Shown: positions 1,934 through 64,000 of the stretch, piece by piece
How the letters are laid out: each line of letters starts with the position of its first letter
How positions within the stretch are numbered: the first letter of the stretch is position 1
Assembly: GCA_025980325.1 (NCBI GenBank)
Contig: JAICXQ010000003.1
Location: 1-64,000, forward strand
Direction: 5' to 3'
Origin: Frankiales bacterium
Lineage (GTDB): Bacteria; Actinomycetota; Actinomycetes; JAFAQI01
DNA length: 64,000 bases
Translations under genes and position numbers: made by a program
The notes under the pieces: generated by a model
The model's database searches: none
The model's input: only the letters and a program-made list of their open reading frames with translations
What the model was told of the DNA's origin: nothing

Positions 1934-1986
1934 GCACCGCCGGCGGCGTTCACGTCGCCTCGCGGGCCGTCAGGCCGCGGCCGCTC

Positions 1987-2056: not shown

Positions 2057-2122
2057 GGCGCGAGCCGGGGGCGGGCGGAGGTTCGTCACAAATTGGGGCT
2101 GTTTCTGCGCCGTACTCCCGGG

Positions 2123-2128
2123 TAATGT
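2123..2128 (+). promoter_or_regulatory. -10 box TAATGT of a leaderless transcript
   Basis: TAATGT ends 6 nt before ATG 2135, so transcription would start at or next to the A of the start codon. No Shine-Dalgarno is present, which agrees with a leaderless mRNA. Confidence 0.6.
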
Positions 2129-2134
2129 GCGGCC

Positions 2135-2332: not shown

Positions 2333-2340
2333 CCGCGGCA

Positions 2341-2386
2341 GCGATCGCGCGCCTGTCCGCCGAGAGGCGAGCCAGCGCGCGATTGC
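2341..2386 (+). terminator. nested hairpin between small gene and SDR gene
   Basis: GCGATCGCGCGC at 2341-2352 pairs with GCGCGCGATTGC at 2375-2386 with one mismatch, and the loop contains a second small stem (CGCC GAGA GGCG). It starts 8 bases after the stop codon of the 65-aa gene. There is no T run, as is common for actinobacterial terminators. Confidence 0.5.
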
Positions 2387-2414
2387 CATGTGCGCCTAAG
2401 CCAAGATGTCCCGC

Positions 2415-3329
2415 ATGAGTCTGTGTGAAGGCCGGGTCGTCATCGTCACCGGCGCCGGGCGCGGCATCGGCCGCGAGGAGGCGCTGGAGTTCGCCCGCGA
2501 AGGCGCGCGCGTCGTCGTCAACGACGTCGGCGTCGCCCGCGACGGCACCGGCGAGGACGCCACCCCGGCGCAGGAGGTCGTCGACGAGATCAAGGCACTC
2601 GGCGCCGAGGCGGTCGCCAACTACGACGACATCTCCGACTTCGACGGCGCCAAGCGGCTGATCGGCCAGGCGATCGAGTCGTTCGGGACCCTCGACGTCG
2701 TCGTCAACAACGCCGGCATCCTGCGCGACCGGATGGTCGTGAACATGTCGATCGACGAGTGGGACGCCGTCATCAAGGTGCACCTGCGCGGCACCTTCGC
2801 CACCACCCATCACGCGGCGAACTACTGGCGCGACCGCTCCAAGGCCGGCGACCCGGTCGACGCGCGCATCGTCAACACGAGTTCGTCGTCGGGCATCTAC
2901 GGCAACGTCGGCCAGTCCAACTACGGCGCGGCCAAGGCCGGCATCGCCGCGTTCACGGTCATCACCGCGATGGAGCTGTCGCGGTACGGCGTCACCGTCA
3001 ACGCGATCGCGCCGGCGGCGCTGACCCGGATGACCGAGGACCTCGTCCGCTGGCAGGCCGACGGCGAGGACGCCCCGGCCTGGGACCCGCGCGACCCGAG
3101 CAACATCGCCCCGCTCGTCGTCTGGCTCGGCAGCGCGGCGTCGCGGGAGATCACCGGCCGCGTGTTCAACGTCCGCGGCGGGCTGGTGTCGGTCGCCGAG
3201 GGCTGGGTCGCCGGTCCGGCCGAGGACAAGGGCGCCCGCTGGCAGCCGGGCGAACTCGGCGAGGTAATCCCCCGCCTGGTCGCCGCCGCCCGCCCCAACT
3301 CGGACACTTCGGGCAAGCCCGCTTCCTAG
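2415..3329 (+). CDS. short-chain dehydrogenase/reductase
   Basis: NAD(P)-dependent oxidoreductase, cytosolic, resembling the (3R)-hydroxyacyl-CoA dehydrogenase / 17-beta-HSD4 type of SDR. The Rossmann motif TGAGRGIG is at residues 12-19, NNAG at about 98-101, a serine cluster NTSSSSG precedes the active-site Y-x-x-x-K in SNYGAAK (Tyr170, Lys174), and the extra loop DVGVARDGTGEDATPAQEVV after strand 2 is typical of that subgroup. The C terminus is longer than a minimal 250-residue SDR. ATG 2415 is chosen because CAAGAT lies 7 nt upstream, as in other leaderless genes here; ATG 2406 is the in-frame alternative. Substrate is inferred only from the family. Confidence 0.9.
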   Translation: MSLCEGRVVIVTGAGRGIGREEALEFAREGARVVVNDVGVARDGTGEDATPAQEVVDEIKALGAEAVANYDDISDFDGAKRLIGQAIESFGTLDVVVNNAGILRDRMVVNMSIDEWDAVIKVHLRGTFATTHHAANYWRDRSKAGDPVDARIVNTSSSSGIYGNVGQSNYGAAKAGIAAFTVITAMELSRYGVTVNAIAPAALTRMTEDLVRWQADGEDAPAWDPRDPSNIAPLVVWLGSAASREITGRVFNVRGGLVSVAEGWVAGPAEDKGARWQPGELGEVIPRLVAAARPNSDTSGKPAS

Positions 3330-3338
3330 CCCACTGGC

Positions 3339-3360
3339 GACTTTGCTCGACTTTCGGCGG
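3339..3360 (+). repeat. GACTTTGCTCGACTTTCG repeat, copy 1
   Basis: Intergenic copy, 10 bases after the SDR stop codon, of a motif that recurs as an inverted pair at 7790-7809 and 7851-7873. I found no further copy in the window. Confidence 0.65.
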
Positions 3361-3401
3361 CGACACAGGAATCCGTGCGGTCGGCGGCGTACTTCTCGCA
3401 C

Positions 3402-5762
3402 GTGACGCGCAAACTTCTCGCTGCGGTTCTTGCCATCGCCACCGGGGTCACGACCCCGGTCCTCGCCGCCGGCCACGGCGACAACGGCAACCACGACGGC
3501 CAGGGCGACCACGGCCATCAATGGGTCGCTCCCCCGCGTGACCACTGGGCCGGCCACAGCGGCGACCTCACCAATGTTCAGGGCTGCGACCCGCTCGACG
3601 GCGCGCAGTGCCTGCTGCCGTTCCCGAACGACTGGTTCACCAAGGACGACCCGAGCAGCACGACCACGCGGCGGGTCGACCTGACCGTGCCGATGATGCC
3701 GCGCAACGTCGCCGGCAAGCCGATCGAGCCGACGGAGTGGGACCGCAACGACGGCTTCAGCGCCGGGTCGCAGATCCTCACCCTCGTCCCCGGCATGACC
3801 AAGAACTCCGACCTGGTGCCGTCAGGGCTGCCGCCGGTCACCGACCTCGGCATGAACGACGGGGACAACCTCGGCGTCGTCCTGCTCGACGAGGAGACCG
3901 GGCGGCGCTGGCCGGTGTGGACCGAGCTCGACCAGTACACCGACGAGAGCGGGACGCTTGCGGCCGGGACGGTCGGCAGCGTCGAGCACGACCTGATGAT
4001 CCACCCGGCGGTCAACCTCGCCGACGGTCACCGCTACATCGTCGCGCTGCGCCACCTCGTCACCGACGACGGTTCGATCGCGCAGCCGAGCGCGGCGTTC
4101 AAGGCCTACCGCGACGGCACCGCGCCGGCGACCGACGCGCGGCGCGCGCACATGGAGAACCTGTTCTCGACGTTGGCCAAAGCCGGGGTCGCGCGCGACG
4201 ACCTTTACCTCGCGTGGGACTTCACCACCGCGAGCACGAAGAACGTCACCGGCCGGCTGCTCGCCATCCGCGACGACGCGTTCAAGCAGCTCGGCGACAC
4301 GAACCTCGCCGACGGCATCGTTACGGGCAACGCGCCGGCGTTCACGGTCGACTCGACGACGGACTTCACCGCGAGCGAGAACAGCAAGGTCGCGCGCCGG
4401 ATCAGCGGGCACTTCACCGTGCCGTGCTACCTCGCACCGGCCTGCGATCCGCCGACGAAGTGCGACCAGGTCTCGCAAGGCCTGTTCAACGATTGCCCGA
4501 CGCCGAGTGAGTTCGCGCTCGACCCGACCAACCCGGACGCGGTGCCGTCGCAGACGCCCGGCCAGACCTACCAGGCCAACTTCATCTGCAACGTCGGCCG
4601 CAAGGCCTTCTCCGACGAAGCGACGTACGCCGGCACGATGCGACCGGTCGAGTACGGGCACGGGTTGTTCGGCAGCGCGAGCGAGGTCAACTCGGATCCG
4701 CAGACGACGATGGCGAACGACCACGCGATGGTCTACTGCGCGACCGACTGGACCGGCATGGCGACCGCCGACGTACCCAATGCAGTCGTCGCGCTGAACG
4801 ACCTGTCGCGGTTCCCGTTGCTGACCGACCGGGTGCAGCAGGGCGAGCTGGATTTCCTTTATCTGGCGCGGTTGATGGTGCACCCGCAGGGCTTCACCGC
4901 GAACCAGGCGTTCCGGTGGCCGGACGGCAAGCCATTCCTCGACATCCGGCAGGCCTTCTACGACGGCAACAGCCAGGGCGGCATCTTCGGCGGCACCGTG
5001 TGCGCGGTCTCGGTCGACGTCCGCCACTGCGCGCTCGGCGTACCCGGCATGGACTACTCGATCCTGTTGCCGCGGTCGAGCGACTACGTCGCGACCAAGC
5101 CCCTGTCGGCGTACGACCCGACGCAGGTCGACCCGACCGATCCGGTCAGTGCGAAGGATCAGATCGGCTACTCGTCGCTGTTCGACAACGCGTATCCGGA
5201 CCAGTCGCAGCGCATGGTGATCCTCGACCTGATCCAGATGTTGTGGGACCGGTCGGATCCGGACGGTTACGCGACGCACATGACCGGCGGGCTGCCGAAC
5301 ACGCCGACCCACCAGGTGCTGCTGCAGGTCGCGTACGGCGACCACCAGGTGGCGAACATCACCGCCGAGGACGAGGCGCGCACCATCGGCGCGCACGGCG
5401 CGGAGCCGCCGCTGGTCAGTGCGCGGTACGGACCGTACGTCGATCCGCTGTGGGGCGTCCCGGCGCTGTCGGCCGACTCGCCGTGGGACGGCTCCGGTAT
5501 CACGTTGTTCGACAGCGGCCCGGCAGGCTACGTGCGCAGCGTCCCGGCTGCGGACGGCGGCGGCACGCACGCCGGCACCGACCCGCCGCCGACCGCGGAC
5601 GTGCCGAACCGCTCCGGCGAGGATCCGCACGAGGCACCGCGGCGCGCGTTCTGCGGTCAGCAGCAGAAAGACGCCTTCCTCGCCGTCGGCGGTCTCGTCA
5701 CCCTGCCGTGCGGCGGGTCGCCGTACTTCTCCTGGGGCTGGGACGGCGTCACCGGTCTGTAA
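3402..5762 (+). CDS. large secreted alpha/beta-hydrolase, lipase-like
   Basis: Probable exported esterase or lipase of about 786 residues. From GTG 3402 the protein starts with a classical signal peptide (VTRKLLAAVLAIATGVTTPVLAA), followed by a His/Gly/Asp-rich linker. The early motif CDPLDGAQCLLPFPNDWFT resembles the N-terminal domain of bacterial Lipase_bact_N/VolA-type lipases. A nucleophile elbow G-N-S-Q-G sits in YDGNSQGGIFGG about two thirds along, and AYGDHQV later could supply the histidine. Cysteine pairs suit an extracytoplasmic protein. GTG 3375 would add nine residues. A -10-like TACTTC lies 6 nt before 3402. Substrate is unknown. Confidence 0.8.
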   Translation: MTRKLLAAVLAIATGVTTPVLAAGHGDNGNHDGQGDHGHQWVAPPRDHWAGHSGDLTNVQGCDPLDGAQCLLPFPNDWFTKDDPSSTTTRRVDLTVPMMPRNVAGKPIEPTEWDRNDGFSAGSQILTLVPGMTKNSDLVPSGLPPVTDLGMNDGDNLGVVLLDEETGRRWPVWTELDQYTDESGTLAAGTVGSVEHDLMIHPAVNLADGHRYIVALRHLVTDDGSIAQPSAAFKAYRDGTAPATDARRAHMENLFSTLAKAGVARDDLYLAWDFTTASTKNVTGRLLAIRDDAFKQLGDTNLADGIVTGNAPAFTVDSTTDFTASENSKVARRISGHFTVPCYLAPACDPPTKCDQVSQGLFNDCPTPSEFALDPTNPDAVPSQTPGQTYQANFICNVGRKAFSDEATYAGTMRPVEYGHGLFGSASEVNSDPQTTMANDHAMVYCATDWTGMATADVPNAVVALNDLSRFPLLTDRVQQGELDFLYLARLMVHPQGFTANQAFRWPDGKPFLDIRQAFYDGNSQGGIFGGTVCAVSVDVRHCALGVPGMDYSILLPRSSDYVATKPLSAYDPTQVDPTDPVSAKDQIGYSSLFDNAYPDQSQRMVILDLIQMLWDRSDPDGYATHMTGGLPNTPTHQVLLQVAYGDHQVANITAEDEARTIGAHGAEPPLVSARYGPYVDPLWGVPALSADSPWDGSGITLFDSGPAGYVRSVPAADGGGTHAGTDPPPTADVPNRSGEDPHEAPRRAFCGQQQKDAFLAVGGLVTLPCGGSPYFSWGWDGVTGL

Positions 5763-49876: not shown

Positions 49877-52258
49877 TCAACCGGCCGGGTCGGAGAGGCT
49901 TGGCGGCGCGGCTGACGAATCCGTGGCCCAATCGGTGGCGGTCGCGGCGAGAGTGAAGGCCAGTGTCCGGCGGCTGTGCAGGTCGCCGTTGGCCAGCCAC
50001 GTCTTGCCGAGCGGCGCCGCCGCACTCCGGCCGGGTTGGGTGAGCGTCGCGGCTGCGACGTACTGGTCGATGCTGCTCGAGCCGGGCGCGTCGATCGTGA
50101 ACCGCGGACCGGAACTGCCGGGGCCGTTGATGACGACGTTGCTGAAGATCGGCGTCGAAAGCTCCCACGCGTCGACCCCGGGCTGGGCCTGGTACAGCCC
50201 GATCGCGGACAGCACATAGGCGGCGCTCATCGTGCCCGCGTCGTCGTTGCCGGGCAGCCCGTACGGCGTCGCGTTGAACACGGCCGTCGCCGCGCGCACG
50301 ACCTGCTCGGTCTTCGACGGCTCGCCGAGCCAGTCATAGAGCCACGGCGCCTGCAGGTCGGTTTCGTTCGCCGGCGTGTACTGGTTGCCGGCGTAATAGA
50401 TGCCGAACGCGCTCGCGTGCTGCTGCGCGAGCGGTACGGCCGGCGCGGCCTGCTGGTCGACCAGCGTCGAGAAGAACTCGTCGAGCCGCTGCTTCATCGT
50501 CGTGTCACCGAGCGTTTCGTCGAGACCGCGGACGTCCTGCGGGACCAGCCATTCGTATTGCCAGCCGGTCCCTTCCTGGTAGCCGTCCTGAAAGTCCGGG
50601 TCGTACGTCGACACCGGACCCTCTGTCGTCGGGTTGGCCCACGAACCGTCGGACATCCGCGGCCGGAGGAACTTCGAGCCGTCCTTGTCGTACAGGCTCT
50701 TCCAGTAGCCGGCCCGAACGGTCATCTCGTCGACCTGCGCAGTCGTGCCGTAGGTGCTCGCGAGTGCCGCGACCGCTGCGTCGTCGATCGCGTACTCGAG
50801 CGTGACCGCGGCGCCACGGTCACTGTGGTCGAACGGGATGTAGTGCAGCGACAAGTAGTCGGGCAGGTCGCTGCGCGGTGAGCCGCCCGGCGGCGGGTCG
50901 GTGGTGGCCTGCCGGTAGATGGCGTCGTACGCGCGTTGCGCGTCGGCACCGGTGAGCGCACCGTCGGTCACGAGCGTGGCGAGAGTGGGAGTGCCGGAGT
51001 CGCCGCCCATGATCGAGTAGTCGCGATTGCCGCGAACCCACTTCGGGATGACGCCGCCGTTCTGATCGGCGTCGTCGAGCAGCGAGATGCCGACGTCGTG
51101 CGCCACGTCCGGCGCGACGAGGGTGAGCAGCGGCGTCTGCGTGCGGTACGTGTCCCACAGCGACAGGTCCGTGTAGTGGTGCTCGCCGGCCGCGACGGCA
51201 TGGACGGCGCCGTCGAACCCGAGGTAGCTGCCGTCGGCGTCGTCGTACGTCGTCGGCATCAGCAGCGCGTGGTAGAGGCACGTGTAGAACGTCTGCTGCT
51301 CGTCGGCGGTGCCACCGGTGACGTCGATGCTGTGCAGCCGCGCGTCCCATTGCTGTTGCGCGTCGTCTTTGACGGTGTCGAAGCCGGTGCCGTCGGGCGC
51401 CTCGGCGTCAAGGTTGGCGGCGGCCTCCGCCGGGCTGGTGTAGCTGACGCCGATCCGTACGCCGACGCTCTGGTCCTGAGTGGTGTCGAAGCCGACCCAG
51501 CCACCGGCACCCCGCCCGGCGGCTGCACCGGCACCGGGCTCGAGACCGCCCGCGTCGGACCACGTGCCGTGCGCGGTGAACGGCCGGTCGAACCGGGCGG
51601 TGAAGTAAATGGTGACGCCGCCGGAGCCCGGCACGTCGACGTCGCCGGTGACGGTCCGATCGTCCGGGATGGTGATGTCGCCGGTCTGCGTCGTGCCGTT
51701 CGGTGCTTGGTTGCTGTCGTTGTCGCGGGTGACGTCGAGCAGCAGGTTCGCCTGCGTCGTGGCCGGGAACGTGTAGCGCTCGACCGCCGTGCGAGTGGTG
51801 GCGGTGAGCTCGGCGCGCGTCTGGTAGCGGTCGAGGGTGACGGCGTAGTAGCCGGGCGCCGTGGTCTCCTCGGCGTGGGAGAACGGGCTGGCCCAGTCGG
51901 CCGGATTCGCACTGGTGACGGCGCCCGTCGTCGGCATGAACGGCAGCTCGCCGCCGATATGGATCCCGGCGCCGGAGAAGTGCGTCAGCGCGAAGCCGCG
52001 GATCTCGGGGTCCTGGTAGGCGTAGCCGACGTAGTTGACCGGCTCGTCGCCGAGCGGTGTCGTGGTGGCCGGGCCGGGCGTCACCATGCCGAAGGGCACG
52101 CCGGCGGCCACGGTCGGGAAGCCGGCGCCGAGGGAGCCGGCGAGCGGGTTGACCAACGCCAGGTGGCTGCTGGCTGCACCCTCGGAGACAGCGGGTAGGA
52201 CGCACGCCATCGCGACGGTCGCGGTCGCGGTGATGATCGGCAGGAGCCTCGGGTGCAT
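49877..52258 (-). CDS. secreted GH92 alpha-mannosidase
   Basis: 793 residues with signal peptide (IITATATVAMACVLPAVSEGA). The GH92 layout is clear: VNPLAGSLGAGFPTVAAGVPFGMV at the start, RGFALTHFSGAGIHIGGELPF, DLSLWDTYRTQTPLL, QEGTGWQYEWLVPQD and GLPGNDDAGTMSAAYVLSAIGLY. GH92 enzymes remove alpha-linked mannose from high-mannose N-glycans with a calcium ion. The family often has Trp in place of the Ala in MSA-A-YVLSA. ATG 52258 starts the signal peptide. It fits with the PNGase A homologue 27 kb away. Confidence 0.93.
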   Translation of the reverse strand: MHPRLLPIITATATVAMACVLPAVSEGAASSHLALVNPLAGSLGAGFPTVAAGVPFGMVTPGPATTTPLGDEPVNYVGYAYQDPEIRGFALTHFSGAGIHIGGELPFMPTTGAVTSANPADWASPFSHAEETTAPGYYAVTLDRYQTRAELTATTRTAVERYTFPATTQANLLLDVTRDNDSNQAPNGTTQTGDITIPDDRTVTGDVDVPGSGGVTIYFTARFDRPFTAHGTWSDAGGLEPGAGAAAGRGAGGWVGFDTTQDQSVGVRIGVSYTSPAEAAANLDAEAPDGTGFDTVKDDAQQQWDARLHSIDVTGGTADEQQTFYTCLYHALLMPTTYDDADGSYLGFDGAVHAVAAGEHHYTDLSLWDTYRTQTPLLTLVAPDVAHDVGISLLDDADQNGGVIPKWVRGNRDYSIMGGDSGTPTLATLVTDGALTGADAQRAYDAIYRQATTDPPPGGSPRSDLPDYLSLHYIPFDHSDRGAAVTLEYAIDDAAVAALASTYGTTAQVDEMTVRAGYWKSLYDKDGSKFLRPRMSDGSWANPTTEGPVSTYDPDFQDGYQEGTGWQYEWLVPQDVRGLDETLGDTTMKQRLDEFFSTLVDQQAAPAVPLAQQHASAFGIYYAGNQYTPANETDLQAPWLYDWLGEPSKTEQVVRAATAVFNATPYGLPGNDDAGTMSAAYVLSAIGLYQAQPGVDAWELSTPIFSNVVINGPGSSGPRFTIDAPGSSSIDQYVAAATLTQPGRSAAAPLGKTWLANGDLHSRRTLAFTLAATATDWATDSSAAPPSLSDPAG

Positions 52259-52315
52259 GCCGCTGGGTTCGCCGCCGGCCGCCAACCTCCTGTCCCGGCC
52301 AAGTTGCCCGGTCGT

Positions 52316-53554
52316 TCAGCCGTTGGGCACCGGCATGTCGGTGCCCGCACCCGCGCACCAGCCGGCGCCGAGCACGGCCTGATTGCTCCAGAGCGACTGC
52401 ACCGGGAAGTTGGTGCCACGGTTGCCGCGGATGTTCGCGGCCGAGCCCGGCTCACCCGGAGTGTCCATACCGACGTAGGCGCACTTGTCGCCGTTCTCGT
52501 TCGCGTCAAACGGGTCGTACCAACCGCCGACCGCCGTGCCGTTGGGCAGGATGTCTTCCGCGCCGGGATCGGTGACCGTCTCTTCGATCTCGTGGCCCAG
52601 AGCAATCGTGACCGGGTCGAGCTTGCCGCGCGGGCCGGAGTTGACCAGGTTGGCGCCGCAACTGCTCGCCATGTTCAGGATGTAGGGCATGTTGGTGTAG
52701 GAGATGCCGCTGCGGATGTTGTTGTAGACGCCGCCCTGCAGCACCGGCTCGGTGTAGTCGTGGAACGCGCAGTAGCCCGAGGACTGCGCGATCGGGTCGC
52801 TGTAGTTCTGCGGTTGAGCGATGACGAAGTCGGCGTCCGCGAGGTCCCCGACACGGAAGTGCCCGACCGCGCGGGCCGCTTCCTGCGCGAGTTGCCGGTA
52901 GATGCCGCTGCCGTCGCCGTTCGTCTTCGCCTTGTCGAGGTTGCCGGAGTCGTCCACCCAGATGCCGCCGAGCTGGTTGCGCGGGTTCGTGATGTGCCGG
53001 CCGGCGGAGTCGTAGTACTGCGTCTGCAGGCCGGCCCATGCGGTGCCACCGAGCTGGGAGATGAAGTCGGCCATCAGCTTGCCGGTGCCGTCGGGGTCGC
53101 ACTTCAGCGTCGCGGCGCGCAGGCCCGGCTCCGCGACGCGCTCACGCGCGCAGTCCGCGTTGAACGCGCCTTCGCGTCCCCAGCCCCACAAGACCAGATA
53201 GATCTTGGGCTTGAGCTGCACGTGCCCGCCCCAGTAGGCCATGTTTCCCGGATAGGGCTGACCAACGGCCGGGAACTCCGGCAGCCCGCAGTTCGAGAAC
53301 GGGCCCGGCAACTTCCCGCTCTCCGGGCACGGCGGCGCCGGCGGGTTGTACGACTGCGCCGTACGAAACGCCCGGCTCCACTGGTTGCCGACTGTCGGCA
53401 GCAGGATCGGTCCGGCCTTCGCCGGCGACGCGACGTGCACGTGTTGTTTCGACACCGGCGCGGATGTCGACGTTGCCCACGCCGCCGGTGCACCAACTAA
53501 CAGAACTACCAGCAGCGCCAGCCGCGTCGTGACGCGCCTCGGCAGTGCATTCAT
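52316..53554 (-). CDS. secreted EXORDIUM-like protein with HEIEE motif
   Basis: 412 residues. Signal peptide LALLVVLLVGAPAAWA. IYLVLWGWGREG, then FISQLGGTAWAGLQTQYYDSAG, then ALGHEIEETVTDPG and WYDPFDANENGDKCAY recall plant EXORDIUM/phosphate-induced-1 proteins and their bacterial relatives, which share a H-E-x2-E motif and a late Gly-Asp-x-Cys. Whether it is a metallopeptidase is unclear because the second zinc histidine of HExxH is a Glu. ATG 53554 has GGAG 6 nt upstream. It lies 57 bases before the GH92 gene on the same strand, perhaps one operon. Confidence 0.75.
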   Translation of the reverse strand: MNALPRRVTTRLALLVVLLVGAPAAWATSTSAPVSKQHVHVASPAKAGPILLPTVGNQWSRAFRTAQSYNPPAPPCPESGKLPGPFSNCGLPEFPAVGQPYPGNMAYWGGHVQLKPKIYLVLWGWGREGAFNADCARERVAEPGLRAATLKCDPDGTGKLMADFISQLGGTAWAGLQTQYYDSAGRHITNPRNQLGGIWVDDSGNLDKAKTNGDGSGIYRQLAQEAARAVGHFRVGDLADADFVIAQPQNYSDPIAQSSGYCAFHDYTEPVLQGGVYNNIRSGISYTNMPYILNMASSCGANLVNSGPRGKLDPVTIALGHEIEETVTDPGAEDILPNGTAVGGWYDPFDANENGDKCAYVGMDTPGEPGSAANIRGNRGTNFPVQSLWSNQAVLGAGWCAGAGTDMPVPNG

Positions 53555-53953
53555 CGTCATCTCCGCGCCCTTCGCGATTTCGCCACGCCTCTTGGTCACT
53601 CACTCCTACGCGGCCACGCGCATTTCGCAACGTGAGCAGATGCATCGCGCAAATCACAGCGGGAGTCGAAGAGACAGGCCGCACCGAGCGTCGTACAAGC
53701 CGACCGCGCCAGGATGTCGCCAACCTCAGGACAACCCGTTGCTGGCGCAGGCACTTCCGTGGTTTCTGATAGATGGTCGAGCGATGCCTGCCGGGCGATG
53801 GCTGGAGAGGACCCAGCATGGACGCCGATCGGTTCTTCGCCAGCAAGTGGTCACGCGCGGTGCGACTGCGTCGACCACAGCCAGGTCTCCCGTTGCGAAC
53901 AACACAGTAGAGAGGCACTGGCGCGTGCGTCATCGTTCACTAGGGGAGAGCCG
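53555..53953. other. 399-base region with no gene, one arm of a direct repeat
   Basis: Divergent gap between the EXORDIUM-like gene and a 98-aa gene. It contains the 29-base repeat copy at 53716-53744 and presumably both promoters, but no clear -35/-10 pair. Frames crossing it have no coding character that I can see. Confidence 0.45.
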
Positions 53954-54305: not shown

Positions 54306-54388
54306 AAGCGGAGTTCGGACGTAGTTACTGGTGAATGTCTGGTGCAGGAGACATCTAGTCGGGGGTGACGCACGATCGAGGAGTAGCT

Positions 54389-56629
54389 ATGGCTCGACGT
54401 CGGTTGTTCGTTCTGCTCGGCGGAATCGTCCCTCTCGCAGCATCGGGGCTGGCTCTCTCCGCGACCGCCGGTACCAATAGCGTCACAGCGGCGTCCGGGA
54501 CGGCACTGCCGGAATTGGTCTCCGCGTCACTGTTCGGTGCGGCGCCGCCAGCGTCGGGCGCGTCGTCGTCATCGGGCGAGATTGTGCGATTCGTCTTCGA
54601 CGAGGCCCTGGCGCAGCAGTCGCTCGTGGCCGCGGACTTCCACCTGGTCGGCTTCGACGCCGATTTGCGATTCGACGGGCAGAGCGTGTTGCTCGAAGAC
54701 GGCGGCAAGTCGGCGCGGGTCACGTTCGGCACCGCGAGCGCGCCGGTGACGGCCGCGCAGCTGGCGGACATATCGCTCGCGAGCGTGTCGACCGGCGCCG
54801 TCTCCGATGCGGGCGGCAAGGTGAACCCACCGGGGAGCGTGCCGCTCGGCACGGCGCGGACGGTGCCCAACAAGCCCGGCGTCACCGTAGGCCCGGCGCT
54901 CGTGGACGTGAGCAGCTTCTCCAGCGCGCTCACCGATCCGACGCCCGACCCGACGGACACGCACGTGACGTTCCGGTTCGACCGACCGGCGTACGTGACC
55001 TCGGGCAGCGGCGGCGGGTGGCATCTGGCGATGCAGGACGGCTCGACGATCACCTGCACGTACAGCTCGGGGTCGGGCACCACGACCGTGACGACGACGT
55101 GTCCCAACCCTGGCACGCTGCCGATCACCGCGATCACTCCATCCCAGGTGACCCGGGCCTACGCCGACGCCGGCGTGGTCAGCACCGATCCGCAGAACAC
55201 CTCGCTCGCGGTGCCGCAGGGTGGCGTGAACGTCTTGCGCACCGTTGCGGTGACCGCGCCGCCGGCAGGCGCGCCGCCCCACCTGAGCACGGTGACCTAT
55301 AAGCCGCGAGTAACCGTTTCCTCGGGATCAGGCCGTTCCCGGATCGCGGACGAGGTCGTGTACGGGTTCGACCAGCCGGTGACGCTCGGCACCGCTGCGC
55401 CGTGCGGGACGACGGTCGGCACGACCGCGGTGAGCACCGGCGCCTGCTTCGTCGTGTCCACGGGTGACTCCCGGCAGATCACGGGTGCCAACACTGCCAA
55501 TTCCGGCCCCGTCGTGCCCAGCAATCCCCCACGCGTCGTCAACGACAGCACCGGCCAGCCGCGGCAGGTCGTCGTCACCGTGCCCGCCGGGACGGTGAAC
55601 TCAGCCGTCGGGGTCGCCGTACAGCCTGGTGCGGTGTCCGCGGCCGGTGGCAGCAAGTCGGCCGGACAAGCTGATTCGCTCGACCAGGCGTTCCCGGACG
55701 GTGGCGTGACGTTCGTTCCAGGAAACCTCGGGCTGGGCACGCACCTCGTCGCGATTCATGTCGACGACCAGTCTTCGCCGCTGCAGACGACGTACTACTT
55801 CGACCGGGACCTGCGCGCCGGGGGAACCAAGCCGGTCGCGACCGACCTGTACCTTCTCGATGCCGACGGTACCCGGCTGCGCTGCGCGGCCGCGACCGAA
55901 GCCTCCGGTGGACCGACCGGCTCCAACAACTCGATCACGTGCACCAGTTACCAGGTCATCGGCACGGTCACCGGCGGCGCACTCGCCCCCACCGCGCCGG
56001 CCGGCGACGACGAGATCCTCGATGCGGTGACCGGCGCGATCGAGGCCGGCGCGGTCACCGCCAGCGACGGCGCACAGAACCCGGAAGACGCCGCGTACGT
56101 CGACCAGCAGCCGGTGGTCAACGCCGTCCAACCGTCGCGCGGCCCGGCCACCGGCGGCACTCATGTGACGATCACCGGCACCGGGTTCGGCATCGTTCGG
56201 TCTGTGCACTTCGGCAGCACCAGCGCGACCAGTTACACGGTCGTCAGTCCGACCCAGATCAACGCCGTCGCGCCCCGACACGACCCCGGCGTCGTGGAAG
56301 TCACGGTTACGACGGTCACCGGCACCAGCGCTGCCACCGCGGGCGACGGCTACACCTACGTCACTCCGCCGCCGACCGTTACCGGCGTGAGTCCCCGGAG
56401 CGGCACCATCCGCGGTGGAACCCGGATCACCATCACCGGCACGAACTTCTATCAGGTCAAAGCGATCCACGTCGGCCGCACACCCATCACCCACTTCACC
56501 GTCGTCAGTCCGGCACGCATTAACGCGGTAACGCCGGCGCACGGGTCCGGCGCGAATCACCTCACCGTCACGACGTCGTACGGGACCAGCCGCGCGACGA
56601 GCCACGACGTGTACACGTACGAGCGGTAG
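54389..56629 (+). CDS. large secreted protein with two C-terminal IPT/TIG domains
   Basis: 746 residues. ATG 54389 follows GGAG; signal peptide RLFVLLGGIVPLAASGLALSATA. The first 560 residues are repeated beta-sandwich-like units (FVFDEALAQQSLVAADFHLVG, VTFRFDRPAYVT, VVYGFDQPVTLG and TTYYFDRDLRAGG look like four related repeats with an F-D core). Two TIG domains follow: VVNAVQPSRGPATGGTHVTI and VTGVSPRSGTIRGGTRITI. An adhesive or surface-layer role is plausible but unproven. Confidence 0.82.
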   Translation: MARRRLFVLLGGIVPLAASGLALSATAGTNSVTAASGTALPELVSASLFGAAPPASGASSSSGEIVRFVFDEALAQQSLVAADFHLVGFDADLRFDGQSVLLEDGGKSARVTFGTASAPVTAAQLADISLASVSTGAVSDAGGKVNPPGSVPLGTARTVPNKPGVTVGPALVDVSSFSSALTDPTPDPTDTHVTFRFDRPAYVTSGSGGGWHLAMQDGSTITCTYSSGSGTTTVTTTCPNPGTLPITAITPSQVTRAYADAGVVSTDPQNTSLAVPQGGVNVLRTVAVTAPPAGAPPHLSTVTYKPRVTVSSGSGRSRIADEVVYGFDQPVTLGTAAPCGTTVGTTAVSTGACFVVSTGDSRQITGANTANSGPVVPSNPPRVVNDSTGQPRQVVVTVPAGTVNSAVGVAVQPGAVSAAGGSKSAGQADSLDQAFPDGGVTFVPGNLGLGTHLVAIHVDDQSSPLQTTYYFDRDLRAGGTKPVATDLYLLDADGTRLRCAAATEASGGPTGSNNSITCTSYQVIGTVTGGALAPTAPAGDDEILDAVTGAIEAGAVTASDGAQNPEDAAYVDQQPVVNAVQPSRGPATGGTHVTITGTGFGIVRSVHFGSTSATSYTVVSPTQINAVAPRHDPGVVEVTVTTVTGTSAATAGDGYTYVTPPPTVTGVSPRSGTIRGGTRITITGTNFYQVKAIHVGRTPITHFTVVSPARINAVTPAHGSGANHLTVTTSYGTSRATSHDVYTYER

Positions 56630-56665: not shown

Positions 56666-58204
56666 TCAGCTCTTCGTGTGATCGGTGTAGGACATCAACA
56701 CCGGCGGCGACGGCGGATAGGGCCCGCAATCGACCACTGCGTAATAGGTAGTGATGGCGAGCCCGCGGTGATCGCTGACCGGCGACGACAGGGTAAGTCC
56801 ATGCGGGCTGGCGACGGCTTCTTTGGGCGTCGGAACCGGCAACCATCTCCCGCTCTTGATGTTGTAGCGCACGGCCTCGGCATGATGACAAGACCCGCCC
56901 GGTTGCCCGTAGTCACCTGTGACCCGCATGATTGCGAGGAGGTCGTTGCTGCCCGCCGCGAAAGTGACATCCTCGATCGGCGGGCTCGCCCATGCCTGGC
57001 GAGCTCCATTGACCGTGGGCACTGCCGTGGTTGGAATCGCCGGCAACGTCGTCCAGGTCCGCCCGCCGTTGACCGATAGGTACACGGACGGGTTGGGAGT
57101 GCCGAACGGCGGCTGGGCCCAGGTGACTACACGTTCTGATCCCTGGGCTGTGTACTCGGCGTCGACTCCGGCAAGCATGACGTTCGGCGGCGCAGCGAAC
57201 ACCTTCGTCCAGGAGGCACCCGCGTTAGCCGATCGCCACAAGCCGGCAGTCGGTGCGCTGCCGCCCGCCAGCGACGCGGTCCATAAGGTGGCCGGGTGGC
57301 GGGGGTCGACGATGAAGTACGGCTGGGATGATGTCCAGGGACTCAGACTCGTCTGATTGTACGAGGGCGGTGCTGGTTCCGGTGTCGCGGTAACGGTCAG
57401 CGGCGACGAGATCTGGGTCCATGACGTGCCGGAGTCATGGGTGACGAAAAACTGAATCGGGTTCGTGACGAGCGATAGCGCGGACAGCACGACCAACTGC
57501 AGAAGTCGCACCTGTTCGCATTCGAAATATGCGGTGCGCGGATCGCTAGGCGAAACGACCAAGGCGGTGTTCCCACAAGCTGGCGTGCCCTCCGGCGCAC
57601 TCGGCGCGTTCGCGCTCGGTACCGGCTGGGGGTCGTCGAATGTCGCGCCGCCGTTCGTGCTGACGAGGAACAACGTCGGAAGCTCGTCCAACGTGAGCTT
57701 ATTGGTATCCGTGTCGGTCGCAACGACGTAGACCGTCTCGTGGTTGGGCGAGCGACTCGTCGATTCTGCCGCCACCGAGCTGATGCTGTAGTTCGGATCA
57801 AGCGGTGCCGCTGCCTGCCCAGCTGTTGAGGAGGGTCCTGGCAAGGTGTCCAGAGACAGGATCATCTGCCACGTGCATCCGGCGTCTTGGGTGCGGAAAA
57901 GCTGCCTGTTGTTCGCATAGAACATGGTCTTGGGACTTGCAGGATCGACTGTGGGACCGACCCCCGGCGACGCATTATTGATGTACGTCTCTTCAGTCGT
58001 GGTCACGAGACTGTCATCAGGTGGTGGCGTGTCGATCGTGGTCCATGGTCCGGCGGATGGTTTACATCGCGCGACCGATCCAGCGCTTGCACCGGTGACG
58101 ACGCCGGAGCCCCCACACAGCGCCGCGATCGTCAACACGGTCAGCGTCCGTCGGTGGCGAAGCTCGGGACGGGGCCACGTGGCCGTCGAATGCGGTCGCG
58201 TCAC
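56666..58204 (-). CDS. secreted BNR/beta-propeller-like protein, paralogue 1
   Basis: 512 residues. GTG 58204 follows GGGAGG; signal peptide LTVLTIAALCGGSGVVTGASA. BNR/Asp-box-like motifs recur: STNGGATF, THDSGTSWTQ, SANAGASWTKVF and SVNGGRTWTTL, at intervals that suit a sialidase-like or VPS10-like propeller. VDPASPKTMFYANNRQLFRTQDAGCTW is shared with the next gene. Cysteines lie in ARCKPS, GCTWQ and CGNTA. It is the last gene of a minus-strand operon. Catalytic residues of sialidases are not evident. Confidence 0.82.
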   Translation of the reverse strand: MTRPHSTATWPRPELRHRRTLTVLTIAALCGGSGVVTGASAGSVARCKPSAGPWTTIDTPPPDDSLVTTTEETYINNASPGVGPTVDPASPKTMFYANNRQLFRTQDAGCTWQMILSLDTLPGPSSTAGQAAAPLDPNYSISSVAAESTSRSPNHETVYVVATDTDTNKLTLDELPTLFLVSTNGGATFDDPQPVPSANAPSAPEGTPACGNTALVVSPSDPRTAYFECEQVRLLQLVVLSALSLVTNPIQFFVTHDSGTSWTQISSPLTVTATPEPAPPSYNQTSLSPWTSSQPYFIVDPRHPATLWTASLAGGSAPTAGLWRSANAGASWTKVFAAPPNVMLAGVDAEYTAQGSERVVTWAQPPFGTPNPSVYLSVNGGRTWTTLPAIPTTAVPTVNGARQAWASPPIEDVTFAAGSNDLLAIMRVTGDYGQPGGSCHHAEAVRYNIKSGRWLPVPTPKEAVASPHGLTLSSPVSDHRGLAITTYYAVVDCGPYPPSPPVLMSYTDHTKS

Positions 58205-58219
58205 GGGACCTCCCGTTCG

Positions 58220-59800
58220 CTAGCTTCGGGTGTGGTCGGTGTACGACAGGAGCACCGGCTGGTTGTTCGAGCCGCAACTACCGTTCCCGCCGTTCGCGTA
58301 GTACGTCGTGGTGGCGAGACCACGATGGTCGCTGGCCGGCCAGGCAAGGCTGATTCCGTGCGGATCGGCGATGGCCTCTTTCGGCGTGGGGACAGGCGAC
58401 CATCTCTTGCTCTTGACGGTGTAGTGCACCGCCTCGGCGTGCGTACACGGAGCCCCAGGATTGCCGTAGTCGCCGCCGGCTTGCAGGATGGCCAGAATGT
58501 CGTTCGTCGCCGCGGCGAACGTGACCGCCTCGAACGCCGTCCAACTCTGCAGTGCGCCGTTCACCTTGGGTATCGCGGTCAACGGGATCGCCGGCAAGGC
58601 AGCCCAGCTCCGGCCGTTGAGGGAGAGGTACACCTGCGGCTTGCTGTTGCCCTTGACCGATGGACCCCAGGTGACGATTCGTTCCACGCCGGAAGGGGTG
58701 TACTCCGCGTCCACTCCGGCAAGGTGGGTGTCGGCCGGTGCGAACACCTTCGTCCAGGTCGCGCCGCTGTCGGTCGAGCGCCACAGAACGCCGGTCGCAT
58801 ACTGGCCCAGCTGACCGCTGGCCGCCCCGGTCGTCGATGCGCCGACGGCGAGATTCGTGGTCCACAACGTGTTGGGATGGCGCGGATCGACGATGAAATC
58901 GGGTTGGGACGGCGGCTGGTTGCCGGCGAGCAGGAAGCCGTCACCGCTCTGCACAGGTTGGGTTGCCAGGACTCCCAGCGCTGCCGAGACCTGGGTCCAC
59001 GATTGACCCGCATCATGCGTGACGAACAGTGGAGACGCGTTGGGGAACAGCGCAAAGGCGATGGCCGTGTAGAAGCCCAGGCTCAGCCACCACAGACGGG
59101 TCTGCTCGCACTGCATGTACACGGTCTTCGGATCGCTCGGCGCAACCTCGAGGGTGGTGTTCTCGCAGGCCGGCACGCCTTCGGGAGCTTCCGGTGCGTT
59201 CGCGCTCGGCAGTGGTTGCGGGGCATGAAATGTCGCACCGCCGTCCGTGCTCACGAGGAACAGCGTCGGTAGCTCGTCGAGCGTTTCCTGATTCGCCTGG
59301 GTCTCGGTCGCGGTGACGTACACCGTCGCGTGGTTGGCCGTCCGGCTCGTCGAAGCGATCGCCAACGACGTGATGCTGTAGAGCTGATCCGAGGACGCAA
59401 CGACCTCGGTCGGGGACGACGACGTCCCCGGCTGGCTGTCGAGCGAGAACGCGAGTTGCCACGTGCAACCCCCGTCGAGCGTACGGAACAGCTGCCGCGG
59501 CGTGGCGTAGAACATGTCCTTCGGGCTTGCCGGATCGACGGCCAGCCCGACACCGGGGACAGGGCTCGGCTGCAGCTCGCCCTGCGAGTCGTTCTGCTCG
59601 GTCGTGTTGATCAGGTTGGTACCCGGCGGAGTGCTCGTTGTCGTCCACGGCCCCGGCGAGACATGACAACGGGCCGGCGCAGCCTGCGCACCGCCGACCA
59701 CGCCGGCACCTGCGCAGAGGACGGCGACGGTGGCGAGCATGGAGACGCGAGGCCGGCGAAGGCTGGCCGTCCAGCCCGTGCTCGATGGCTGTGGTGTCAC
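58220..59800 (-). CDS. secreted BNR/beta-propeller-like protein, paralogue 2
   Basis: 526 residues, a clear tandem paralogue of the following gene: the same AVDPASPKDMFYATPRQLFR start, DELPTLFLVSTDGGATF, IVDPRHPNTLWTTNLA, STDSGATWTKVFAP, HAEAVHYTVKSKRW and the same end YTDHTRS. Asp-box motifs STDGGATF, THDAGQSWTQV and STDSGATW mark propeller blades. GTG 59800 follows GAGGAGG. Spacing to paralogue 1 is 15 bases, so they are co-transcribed. Ligand or substrate unknown. Confidence 0.83.
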   Translation of the reverse strand: MTPQPSSTGWTASLRRPRVSMLATVAVLCAGAGVVGGAQAAPARCHVSPGPWTTTSTPPGTNLINTTEQNDSQGELQPSPVPGVGLAVDPASPKDMFYATPRQLFRTLDGGCTWQLAFSLDSQPGTSSSPTEVVASSDQLYSITSLAIASTSRTANHATVYVTATETQANQETLDELPTLFLVSTDGGATFHAPQPLPSANAPEAPEGVPACENTTLEVAPSDPKTVYMQCEQTRLWWLSLGFYTAIAFALFPNASPLFVTHDAGQSWTQVSAALGVLATQPVQSGDGFLLAGNQPPSQPDFIVDPRHPNTLWTTNLAVGASTTGAASGQLGQYATGVLWRSTDSGATWTKVFAPADTHLAGVDAEYTPSGVERIVTWGPSVKGNSKPQVYLSLNGRSWAALPAIPLTAIPKVNGALQSWTAFEAVTFAAATNDILAILQAGGDYGNPGAPCTHAEAVHYTVKSKRWSPVPTPKEAIADPHGISLAWPASDHRGLATTTYYANGGNGSCGSNNQPVLLSYTDHTRS

Positions 59801-59904
59801 GGGAACCTCCTCACGAACCGACGCTCACGCTAGGTCTGGATCAACGACGGCGACAGCGATTGGCGGGCGGCTGTCCAGCGACTGTCCAGCCGCCGCCGCG
59901 CCCG

Positions 59905-60498
59905 TCACCCACTCCATTGGTTGATGCACGATTGCAGCGACTCGCGATAGGCGTCGCTGGTGTACGTCGCCCCCGAAACCGTTTGAATATCAGCGTTTTC
60001 GAGCCGCAGCGCCTCCTTGCGCAGTTGCGGGCCGGCGTAGCCGTTGATCTGGTCGTTGGTCGAGTTTCCGTTCGGCAGCTGGAGGTTCACGACGTCGGCC
60101 CAGTGAGTGCCCTGGATCTTGATGGCGACCTGTACCGGGCCGAAGCTGCCGGCCTGGAACGTTTGGCACGTGTAGGTCTGTGCCGGCCCCGCCGCCGCCT
60201 TCGTCTGGTGCGGATCGGCTTTCGCGGCCGGCCCTCCCCCACCAGTGGTAATCGTGACCGTGCGCGTCACGGTGACGGATCGCGGCGGTGGCGCACCGGC
60301 CGGCCGGGCAGGGCGAGCGGACGCGAGAACGCGAGCGGACGCAGGTCCGTCGGGAGTCGTGACGGATCGCATCGCGACCGTGGTCGAGGGCGACGCGTGC
60401 GTCGGGGCCGCGGGCGGGGTGCGGTAGCGCAGGGTCAACGTGAGTCCGACCGCAGTCAGACCGAGTACGACGCCGGTCTTGATGGCGGGCTTCATCAT
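59905..60498 (-). CDS. membrane-anchored FMN-binding domain protein
   Basis: 197 residues. An N-terminal helix (TGVVLGLTAVGLTLTL) anchors it outside the membrane; a Pro/Ala linker leads to the FMN-binding domain VAIKIQGTHWADVVNLQLPN, with the flavinylation motif SGATYTSDAY near the C terminus, where the Thr is expected to carry FMN covalently after ApbE action. ATG 60498 overlaps the reductase gene stop as ATGA. It probably takes electrons from the reductase to an extracytoplasmic acceptor. Confidence 0.88.
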   Translation of the reverse strand: MMKPAIKTGVVLGLTAVGLTLTLRYRTPPAAPTHASPSTTVAMRSVTTPDGPASARVLASARPARPAGAPPPRSVTVTRTVTITTGGGGPAAKADPHQTKAAAGPAQTYTCQTFQAGSFGPVQVAIKIQGTHWADVVNLQLPNGNSTNDQINGYAGPQLRKEALRLENADIQTVSGATYTSDAYRESLQSCINQWSG

Positions 60499-61910
60499 GC
60501 GAGCGCGAACCCTTCCGTGTGGATCCGGCCGATAGGCAATCCGGCGGCACGCAGTCCGCGGTTGACGCGCTCCGTCATCCCGGGCGGGCCGCAGACATAC
60601 GCGTCGCAGCAGCCCGGTTCGGTGATGAGATCGCGAAGCATCGCCGGGCTGAGCGGGTCGTCGTCGTCACCGGTGCCGCGGTGCCCGGTGACCACCAGCA
60701 GCCGGAACCGGTCGGTGCGTTGCAGGCGCACGAGTTCGTCGCCGAAGTTGACCTGACCGGCGTCACTGACGCGGTAGACCAACGTGACCGCGTCGGTTCC
60801 GCTCGCGATGACGTGCTCCGCGATGGCGAGCAGCGGCGCGACCCCGGAACCGCCGCCGATGAGCAGCACTTCCCGGCCGCGACGCAGCCGCCCGCTCAGT
60901 GCGCCGTACGGCCCTTCCAGCAGAACCCGCGTGCCCGGTTGGCAGTGCGCGAGCCAGTTGGTGTGGTCGCCGACCGGCTTGGCGGTCATCCGCAACCAGG
61001 ATCCGTTAGGTGCCGCCGACAGGGAGAACGGATGGGCCTGGGACCAGCCGCCGCGAACGAGGAAGCGCCAGCGGAAGTACTGGCCGCCGACGACGGGCAG
61101 CCGATCCAGTCTGCGGCCGGAGACATAGACGCTTGTCGAACCGTCGGGTTCGCTGGTCACGTCGACGACGCGGAAGCGGTGGCGCGCATATCGCCAGATC
61201 GGATCGCCGATGCGATAGCGCAGCACAAGGAACGCGACGCTGCCGTGCGCGCTCGCCCACACCACCCGAGCCGGAAGGCTGTGCATGAACAGCGCACCGG
61301 TCGCGAACTGGTGGGCGAACGCCAGTCCGATGCCGACGTACACGTACAGGTGGACCCACTGCCACGTCTCGTAGCGCAACCGGCGGCGGATCGGGCGAAG
61401 CGACGTCATGACCACGAGCGCGAGCAGCCCGAGCCCGACCGTGCCGGCGAGGACATCCGGATAGGTCAGCACCAGGACGGCGGCCTCGTGCACCACGGAG
61501 GTGTGCACCGCCAGCGCATCGCCGATGGTGATGGTCACGGTATGGATGAGAACCAGCCACAAGATGTAGCCGCCGAGCCACCGATGCGCGGCCGCCAGCC
61601 AATCGGTGCCGATGCGATGCTCCAGCGCCGGGACGCGCGCCATCAGCGTGACCTCGACGAGGATCAGGATCGCCGAGAGCATCCCGGCCGACCGGCCGAG
61701 CTCGACCAGCACGCTTCCGGTGCCGCCGGTCTCCCGCGTCACCGGACTCGACCACCAGTACAACAGCACGGCGAAGCACACGAGACCCGCCGACGCGACG
61801 ACGAGCCATGCCGTGGCGCGCCTGGTGAGCACCAGCCGTCGCATCGGCTCGACCGACGGCAGCGCCCGGTCGAGGACCGGCGCTTCGGTCGGGAGCACCG
61901 CCGACGACAT
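60495..61910 (-). CDS. ferric reductase-like membrane flavoprotein
   Basis: 471 residues. ATG 61910 follows GAGGAGG. Six helices in the first 230 residues carry histidines (AAHRWLGGYILWLVLIHTV, WQWVHLYVYVGIGLAFAHQ) that suit two hemes, as in ferric reductase transmembrane (FRE/NOX-like) domains. The cytoplasmic part is ferredoxin-NADP reductase-like: HPFSLSAAP for FAD, LLIGGGSGVAPLLAI for NAD(P)H and the final CGPPGM. It would move electrons from NAD(P)H across the membrane to the FMN protein encoded next. Confidence 0.9.
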   Translation of the reverse strand: MSSAVLPTEAPVLDRALPSVEPMRRLVLTRRATAWLVVASAGLVCFAVLLYWWSSPVTRETGGTGSVLVELGRSAGMLSAILILVEVTLMARVPALEHRIGTDWLAAAHRWLGGYILWLVLIHTVTITIGDALAVHTSVVHEAAVLVLTYPDVLAGTVGLGLLALVVMTSLRPIRRRLRYETWQWVHLYVYVGIGLAFAHQFATGALFMHSLPARVVWASAHGSVAFLVLRYRIGDPIWRYARHRFRVVDVTSEPDGSTSVYVSGRRLDRLPVVGGQYFRWRFLVRGGWSQAHPFSLSAAPNGSWLRMTAKPVGDHTNWLAHCQPGTRVLLEGPYGALSGRLRRGREVLLIGGGSGVAPLLAIAEHVIASGTDAVTLVYRVSDAGQVNFGDELVRLQRTDRFRLLVVTGHRGTGDDDDPLSPAMLRDLITEPGCCDAYVCGPPGMTERVNRGLRAAGLPIGRIHTEGFALA

Positions 61911-61929
61911 CTTCGCCTCCTCGCTGCCG

Positions 61930-63873
61930 TTACTCGTGGTTCGCGATCAGGTAGACCGGGCCCGCGTACGAAACCATCTGCTCCGTCTCGCCGGATGCGT
62001 CGTCGATGGTCGCGACCACTGCGTTCTCGACCACGCTGCGGCACTGGACGACGGTGTAGACGAGCCCGGCCGCCTGATCCAGTGCGGGCGCGACCGGATT
62101 GAAGTTCCAGTCGCGTACGTCGTACTTCGCGCCGGCCACGCCGACCGGGCTCGATCCGACCCGTTGCCACGAAGGCGCGCCGGGCGGCAGCCGGTAGGAC
62201 CTGATCGACGCGGTCGTGATGCCCGGCGCCGGATCGACGCCGAGGCTCAAGCTCACCCCGTCCGGCAGGAACGACAACCACAGCGGTTGGATCTGGTTGT
62301 AGACGCCGTCCGTCGTCACTTCCTGTGCCTGCGACGACTCCTCGCCGACGGGCAGGTAGACCTCGCGCAAGGTGGTCGGCGACGGCAACGTCGTCCAGTG
62401 CGTTCCGTTGTCGGTCGAGCGCAGCACCACGTAGACGAAGCCGTTCGTCTGCGGGTCGAGGTAGTGCTCGACGACCGCGGCCGCGAAGCCCGAGCCGTGA
62501 TCGGCGACCGCGTAGTCGTCGATGTAGGTCATCATCGGATAGCCGACGCCGGTGTCCTCCGTCGGTGCGGCCAGCCCGGTCCAGCTCTTCCCGTAGTCAC
62601 CGGACACGTAGAGCGTGCCGTCGGACTCGAACCGCCCGTTCTGGGTGTCGGCGCCGTCCACGCCGTTCGCCCGCGGCGGCGTCGTACCCGGCGGCGTCTC
62701 CACACCGAGCCCGTAGATCCGCCCTGGCCGGCTCGGGTCGACTCGCAACTGGAACAGGTAGTCCTCGGCAGTGCCGACCGCGTACAGCGCCGGCATCGCC
62801 CAGTGCGGACCGGGGCGGATCGGCACGGCGGCGAGTTGCCAGGTCGAGCCGCCGTCACGGCTCACGAACAACCGCATCCGGCCCGAGCTCGCGCTGGTTC
62901 CCGGCGCTGCGTCGGCGGCCGTCTCGAGATACACGACGTGGGGATCGGTCGGTGCGACGGCGAGCAGTTGCGGGTACCCGCTCCCCGCCGGCAGGGCCTG
63001 CATGGCGCTCGTCACTTGCATGCCACCCGCCGACACGGGTTGGCCGGCCAGCGGAACTGAGGCCGACCACGTCGTGCCGCCGTCGGCGCTCGCCGCCAGC
63101 ACCACATGCCCGCCGTACGTTCCGTACGCCGTCGACCACCACGGCGGCGCGATGGTCGCGTAGACCTGGTCGCCGGCTGCGGCAATCGCGGTGACGGCAT
63201 ATCCGGGTGGCACCGGGATCGCACCGTCGGTGACCGACGCGCCCGCGGGATGCGCGGTCGGATCGAGCGACAGCACCGGAGCCCACGAACACCCGCCGTC
63301 CGACGTGCGCAGCACCTTCGTGCCGTCCGACGCGAGCAGCCGTCCGGGCCGCCCACCGGGAACGACGAACGACGTGGACGCAACAGCGGCGCCGCCACCC
63401 ACACCTGCCGGCGGCACGCCCACCACCTGCTGACCGCTGTTGACCGCCGCGCTTGCGGTGTCCCACACCGAAGACGACGCATCCGGCATCCCGACGACGG
63501 CAAGCCGGCCGGTGACCCGCACGCCGGGGCATGGGCTGCGGGTGAGCACGTTTCCGGTCGCGACCGGCAGCTGCGCCGGTCCCTGTGCGCCGTACGGCGT
63601 CGTTGGCGGCGCCTCGGTCCGGCGCACCAGCGTCACCACCCGGACCTGCGCACCGGGCGGGGCCGGCGCGCCGTCCGCGGCGCCGGAAGGCTGCCGCCTC
63701 GGCAGGGCCGCGCCGGCGTGACCGGCGGCCAGCGACACCGGTCGTTGGGGCAGCAACAGCGTCAGAGCGATCAGCGCCGCGGTCGTCGCACTCGCGACGA
63801 CGCTCGGCCGCTTGGCGATCACCCCGGCGTGCAGCCGCCAACCGCTCGCCCGTCCGGTCGACAAGGCGAGCAT
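61930..63873 (-). CDS. large secreted BNR/beta-propeller-like protein, paralogue 3
   Basis: 647 residues. A hydrophobic helix at about 27-45 (VVASATTAALIALTLLL) acts as signal or anchor after a basic N terminus. Asp-box motifs: RTSDGGCSWAPVLSLD, ASADGGTTWSASV, SRDGGSTWQL, SGDYGKSWTGL and STDNGTHWTTL, so a propeller with more blades than paralogues 1 and 2. GCSW near the start mirrors GCTW of those proteins. ATG 63873 shares its A with the TGA of the upstream gene (TGATG), and the reductase starts 19 bases after its end. Confidence 0.82.
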   Translation of the reverse strand: MLALSTGRASGWRLHAGVIAKRPSVVASATTAALIALTLLLPQRPVSLAAGHAGAALPRRQPSGAADGAPAPPGAQVRVVTLVRRTEAPPTTPYGAQGPAQLPVATGNVLTRSPCPGVRVTGRLAVVGMPDASSSVWDTASAAVNSGQQVVGVPPAGVGGGAAVASTSFVVPGGRPGRLLASDGTKVLRTSDGGCSWAPVLSLDPTAHPAGASVTDGAIPVPPGYAVTAIAAAGDQVYATIAPPWWSTAYGTYGGHVVLAASADGGTTWSASVPLAGQPVSAGGMQVTSAMQALPAGSGYPQLLAVAPTDPHVVYLETAADAAPGTSASSGRMRLFVSRDGGSTWQLAAVPIRPGPHWAMPALYAVGTAEDYLFQLRVDPSRPGRIYGLGVETPPGTTPPRANGVDGADTQNGRFESDGTLYVSGDYGKSWTGLAAPTEDTGVGYPMMTYIDDYAVADHGSGFAAAVVEHYLDPQTNGFVYVVLRSTDNGTHWTTLPSPTTLREVYLPVGEESSQAQEVTTDGVYNQIQPLWLSFLPDGVSLSLGVDPAPGITTASIRSYRLPPGAPSWQRVGSSPVGVAGAKYDVRDWNFNPVAPALDQAAGLVYTVVQCRSVVENAVVATIDDASGETEQMVSYAGPVYLIANHE

Positions 63874-64000
63874 CAACAGCCGCCGGTATAGAGAAGGCCG
63901 TACGAAGTCACCGTCGTCGCCGTCTGGAACGTCGGGGTCGTCTGCTGGCGCGACACGTACGCCGTCACGAACAGCCGGCCCGAGCTATCGGTCAACCGGA
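63873..64000 (-). CDS. C-terminal end of an upstream exported-type protein (partial)
   Basis: The last 41 codons of a gene that enters from beyond the window end. The visible sequence RLTDSSGRLFVTAYVSRQQ and its final GLLYTGGC are beta-rich with a terminal Cys, similar in style to the neighbouring secreted proteins. The TGA at 63873-63875 overlaps the next start codon, placing it in the same operon. No family can be named from so little. Confidence 0.6.
   Translation of the reverse strand, partial: RLTDSSGRLFVTAYVSRQQTTPTFQTATTVTSYGLLYTGGC

Follow-up and report, generated by a model that had tools for sequence, protein, structure and literature searches.

Gene order at the locus

The window (the whole stretch of DNA that was analysed, 64,000 bases) comprises positions 1-64000 of contig C53 (85,321 bases), from a MAG of 129 contigs that is 68% complete. 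Positions 56666-64000 hold five complete genes and one cut gene, all on the minus strand, and their operon extends beyond the window edge to about 77.3 kb on the contig. Read 5′ to 3′, the full locus encodes an ApbE, a STAND NTPase, an FtsH-type protease and a p97-like double-AAA ATPase, followed by an SBBP/PQQ-like propeller, a tethered propeller and two Asp-box propellers (prop4 and prop3); then come the FRE reductase, the FMN-binding protein and two more Asp-box propellers (prop2 and prop1), giving six propellers and two AAA machines. In contig coordinates the genes are:

56666-58204, minus strand: prop1, exported Asp-box propeller, a tandem duplicate of prop2 (58% identity)
58220-59800, minus strand: prop2, exported Asp-box propeller
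59905-60498, minus strand: FMN_bind protein with an N-terminal anchor and an SGAT flavinylation motif (PF04205, over cut-off)
60495-61910, minus strand: FRE, an MsrQ-like/ferric-reductase membrane domain (PF01794) fused to a FAD/NAD(P)-binding domain (PF00175)
61930-63873, minus strand: prop3, exported Asp-box propeller
63873-65363, minus strand: prop4, Asp-box propeller (the window holds its 3′ end, 63873-64000)
65360-68071, minus strand: tethered propeller of 903 aa, with a signal peptide and a C-terminal hydrophobic stretch
68078-69625, minus strand: SBBP/PQQ-like propeller of 515 aa
69645-71918, minus strand: p97-like double AAA ATPase
71919-74438, minus strand: FtsH/M41 protease
74667-76226, minus strand: STAND NTPase
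76574-77314, minus strand: ApbE, about 15 kb upstream of the FRE-FMN pair

An earlier note on this DNA had described a minus-strand run of genes arranged like one operon, and its overlaps, short gaps and single strand are as we find them: TGATG between prop4 and prop3, a 19-nt gap before FRE, an ATGA overlap between FRE and the FMN gene, 104 nt before prop2, where a ribosome site of GGAGG type lies, and 15 nt between prop2 and prop1. The partial “exported-type” gene of that note is indeed present, and proves to be the Asp-box propeller prop4; the three propellers that it counted are all complete in the window, but the operon runs on and the contig holds six. We place the start of prop3 at the ATG at 63873, within the TGATG, while the mechanical ORF begins one TTG earlier, at 63876. 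The six junctions from FtsH to FRE range from a 4-nt overlap up to a 19-nt gap, and STAND and ApbE are set apart by gaps of about 230 and 350 nt. A promoter/terminator scan gave 0 promoters and 3 terminators; shuffled sequences gave more. Elsewhere in the window, a plus-strand gene (54365-56629) for a protein with two IPT/TIG stretches is convergent to the operon, and the minus strand encodes an exported-looking protein with no Pfam match (52316-53599) and a GH92 enzyme (49877-52285).

The STAND-FtsH-p97-propeller cassette

The AAA genes that define a cassette elsewhere fell outside the 64-kb window. Counting the window copy, there are ten copies of this cassette in three Frankiaceae-type MAGs, which are related to each other and are not independent samples; the other nine lie in the window genome (contigs C103 and C34), in G160 (one copy, split over two contigs) and in G052 (six copies). 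FtsH directly precedes p97 in every copy (10/10), with propellers downstream of or beside the two genes. Compared with the window copy, p97 is 54-73% identical, FtsH 57-78% and STAND 41-60%, but the propellers only 25-50%. In the p97 tree the window copy groups with three G052 copies (95/96) and not with the paralogues of its own genome.

The distribution of these proteins is narrow. Full-length STAND relatives were found, among 84,980 named species, only in the ‘Frankiaceae bacterium’ MAGs BP_191 and BP_195; in plasmids the family gave just three weak partial matches (27-30% identity), and in IMG/VR no match. The p97-like protein has its own helical N-terminal region, which in a search of 396 phylum genomes matched within the window's own genome and gave no match in the 395 others. 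For the propellers, a search of 247 class genomes returned, outside the window genome, nothing more than partial matches, the best being in G160 and G052. At two further loci, L019 (C21:84001-104000 of the window's own genome) and L021 (G160:C19), the DNA read holds propellers of this Asp-box family but no AAA genes.

FtsH scores 637.2 bits against TIGR01241, over the cut-off of 600, and the window copy has HESGH, GPPGCGKT and two TM segments; HE[SA]GH and GPPGCGKT are intact in 8/8 FtsH copies read. These are the features of a membrane-anchored AAA and M41 protease, and apparently of an active one. About 140 residues between the two TM segments would lie outside, and FtsH could therefore meet exported propellers. 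The p97-like protein has two P-loops in all copies, and both Walker B motifs are present in the window copy, while its score against the CDC48 model (TIGR01243) is 334.6 bits, short of the 802.65 cut-off. Its first P-loop reads GPPGTGKN, rather than GKT/S, in 8/10 copies (C53:69645-71918, L018, L020, L022, L074, L075, L076 and L083), a substitution expected to affect how magnesium is bound; L084 and L086, the copies that diverge most, have GKT. The predicted STAND model (pLDDT 76) resembles the nucleotide-binding regions of MalT, APAF-1 and plant NLRs, and the helices at its N-terminus are reminiscent of a helix-turn-helix.

The propellers themselves are diverse. Prop1 to prop3 give BNR/Sortilin-type Pfam matches, all below cut-off, and the SBBP/PQQ-like propeller has no phmmer match in the PDB. 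Across the cassettes, members of the Asp-box, kelch or PQQ/SBBP families occupy the propeller slots, with a strong kelch-type propeller replacing the Asp-box one at L075 (8105-10426) and L083 (4668-7142); the slot keeps the fold, not the family. In the nine copies read in frame (all but L084), the C-terminus of the big propeller consists of a hydrophobic stretch followed by a basic tail.

In the literature searched, in which few subscription papers were in scope, we found no description of this cassette, and no paper that treats BNR repeats together with FtsH and gene neighbourhoods. The cassette is the unusual part of the locus and appears to be undescribed. The earlier note had seen here its best candidate for an undescribed system, and apparently there is one, but it is this cassette and not the link of redox genes to propellers.

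The anatomy of the cassette suggests that its likely role is to handle or survey propellers of the envelope at the expense of ATP. The propellers could serve there as binding proteins or scaffolds stabilised by disulfides; FtsH, aided by p97 as an unfoldase, may extract or degrade clients in the envelope, the tethered propeller for instance, the domains and gene order suggesting that the p97-like ring could unfold them; and STAND might act as an NTP-gated switch. In this specific form, with FtsH and p97 handling propellers under the control of STAND, the mechanism is possible rather than probable. If the cassette genes do cooperate, they would represent a new route for quality control, shedding or surveillance at the actinobacterial surface, and would provide a defined gene set to test. 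In all ten copies, from three genomes, gene order links the apparently active FtsH and the double-AAA protein with exported propellers and STAND.

The main rival to envelope handling is a role in biological conflict (anti-phage or kin discrimination), in which STAND senses, the AAA proteins and protease execute, and the propellers are variable recognition parts. The presence of a STAND NTPase, the multiple copies, the patchy distribution and the fast evolution of the propellers relative to p97 are in keeping with this, as is the precedent of AAA-protease pairs in defence (IetAS in PADLOC). One copy (L086) also lies beside ORFs that by eye are tyrosine-integrase-like and OLD/AAA-nuclease-like (523-4030), and these neighbours hint at cassette mobility. 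However, the propellers are exported and not cytosolic, the PADLOC matches to IetA are of a generic AAA kind and come with no IetS, the window copy has neither a MoxR nor a vWA partner, and viral and plasmid sequences yielded only what is described above. We therefore think a conflict role unlikely.

The flavin pair and its place in the operon

FRE scores 60.2 bits against PF01794 (cut-off 28) and, in its C-terminal NAD-binding domain, 37.4 bits against PF00175 (cut-off 22), and its gene adjoins that for FMN_bind. Its haem-type histidines (109, 123, 187 and 200) are invariant in 25/25 sequences, and these four membrane residues would make up two haem sites. The FMN_bind protein has its D..SGAT motif in place, and homologues have an SGAT-like motif; the ApbE at the locus is the only one found in the window genome. 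The window FMN_bind protein (59905-60498) also has two cysteines (YTCQTF and QSCINQ) at positions where homologues differ, possibly forming a disulfide peculiar to it. A PF01794-PF00175 reductase with FMN_bind is a published type of transmembrane NAD(P)H-to-FMN path (PMC8238504), as the earlier note had held; 1797 MsrQ-like flavinylation clusters have been reported, mostly actinobacterial, in which a C-terminal PF00175 is common but not universal (PMC8238504, eLife 2021). The FRE and FMN_bind pair, with ApbE, is such a cluster, a known one of Actinobacteria, and agrees with it in all four respects tested. Following the model published for such proteins, FRE would take electrons from cytosolic NAD(P)H via FAD to two haems across the membrane, and from there they would reach the FMN that ApbE is expected to link covalently to the threonine of SGAT in the anchored FMN_bind protein.

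Surveying 198 class genomes at E <= 1e-60, we found FRE in 83. Among 24 other class FRE loci read, FMN_bind adjoins FRE in 23 (the remaining locus is cut by a contig end) and ApbE directly follows the pair in 21, whereas Asp-box proteins, the AAA pair and STAND occur in 0/24. Used alone as a query against GTDB contigs, the FMN protein gave no matches. A search of 395 class genomes gave a single close relative of the window FRE, G086:C73 (54%); the two make up a clade of their own (SH-aLRT 100). This closest pair likewise has neither propellers nor an ApbE beside it. A split of an ancestral FRE-FMN-ApbE operon is possible.

Conversely, FRE, FMN_bind and ApbE are found in 0/9 other cassettes in the DNA read. 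The earlier note's proposal that the redox pair and the propellers form one system thus fails in both directions, and by the note's own criterion: none of the loci read in other genomes conserves the neighbourhood, and the link is seen at this single locus. We consider that the locus probably consists of two independent modules joined in one operon, a reading that does not require electrons to pass to the propellers. As the window copy groups with G052 cassettes, there are cassettes of the same subtype without the pair; since these closest relatives in the p97 tree lack it, the simplest history, and the most likely one, is an insertion of FRE-FMN among the propeller genes of the window copy. 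The sample behind this absence of a link is small (three cassette genomes, with the window genome 68% complete), and the fit of the pair into the operon, precise to the codon, counts against separate modules: it agrees with co-expression, and this can mean shared function. Taken as a whole, the cassette may be a so far undescribed envelope machine, present in several copies within a small lineage of actinobacteria; STAND, FtsH and the p97-like protein would act on propellers, exported or tethered, whose families are interchangeable, and the window copy would have captured a flavin pair. This reading we find quite possible, if a little short of probable.

A functional link as the earlier note saw it would make the propellers scaffolds for FRE-FMN, substrates of its redox chemistry or carriers of its cofactors; perhaps, as a lineage-specific recruitment, the pair would reduce disulfides or bound metal in them. 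The tight packing of the operon, and two extra cysteines (45 and 452) that prop1 and prop2 share with few paralogues, would suit such a link. However, propellers from cassettes that lack the pair also keep cysteines 112, 212, 231 and 509, and the fold relatives are not redox proteins. Cofactor-loaded propellers, which the earlier note had entertained, find no support in the sequences, which have no CXXCH (haem c), no FMN attachment motif and no twin-arginine motif, the sole SGAT in prop2 being part of an Asp-box. Together with the two counts above (0/24 and 0/9), this makes a redox role for the propellers improbable.

The propellers might instead be exported glycan-active enzymes (GH74- or sialidase-like), with the AAA genes providing their quality control; their profile matches in the PDB include partial ones to GH74 xyloglucanases and sialidases, and there are weak NCBIfam matches to the F510_1955 glycosylhydrolase. 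Yet these matches lie mainly over the Asp-box blades, which are common to non-enzymes (sortilin, YCF48 and DAIP), every curated cut-off is missed, and kelch and PQQ/SBBP propellers occupy the same slots, so that we regard this as very improbable. That a metagenome chimaera joined FRE-FMN to the propellers, as an arrangement seen once in a MAG so fragmented and incomplete could suggest, is scarcely credible given same-strand borders of 19 and 104 nt with GGAGG-type ribosome sites and similar codon-position GC on both sides.

With two modules in one operon as the preferred reading, the locus illustrates how neighbouring genes of an operon, seen at the edge of a window, may look like a system for which a broader comparison gives no support.

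Comparison with known systems

The flavin module resembles MsrQ-like clusters in its PF01794-PF00175 membrane protein, its SGAT FMN_bind protein, its nearby ApbE and its actinobacterial host, but differs in that ApbE lies upstream across the AAA and propeller genes, about 15 kb away, and not directly downstream.

For the cassette, MoxR-vWA ternary conflict systems include FtsH and beta-propeller types, with STAND domains in another subtype (PMC7159879, eLife 2020), and share with it AAA+ ATPases with FtsH-type domains. Their FtsH type has a double FtsH-type AAA protein whose first domain is inactive, its P-loop and Walker B lost (PMC7159879), whereas the window p97-like protein keeps both P-loops and both Walker Bs. 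The cassette also differs in having a complete FtsH with M41, exported propellers, a STAND protein that is not fused to propellers, and no MoxR/vWA; vWA gave no match at the locus, and the bpMoxR match is a generic AAA one below cut-off.

Tandem AAA domains are common to the cassette p97, the CDC48 family and the Cdc48-like actinobacterial protein Cpa (PMC6017811); from the CDC48 family the cassette protein is distinguished by its score below the model cut-off, its own N-terminal region and the GKN of most copies. The IetAS anti-phage pair similarly sets an AAA ATPase beside a protease, but in the cassette the protease is a zinc enzyme of the FtsH type and the ATPase is a double AAA protein; the IetA model gave 200.8 bits, missing its cut-off of 510, and the subtilisin-type IetS gave no match in PADLOC. 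Finally, the prop2 model, predicted with modest confidence (pLDDT 65, pTM 0.73), matches the folds of GH74, sortilin Vps10, YCF48 and DAIP at 11-16% identity and shares Asp-box repeats with them; the likeness shown is one of fold, not of gene context or catalytic residues.
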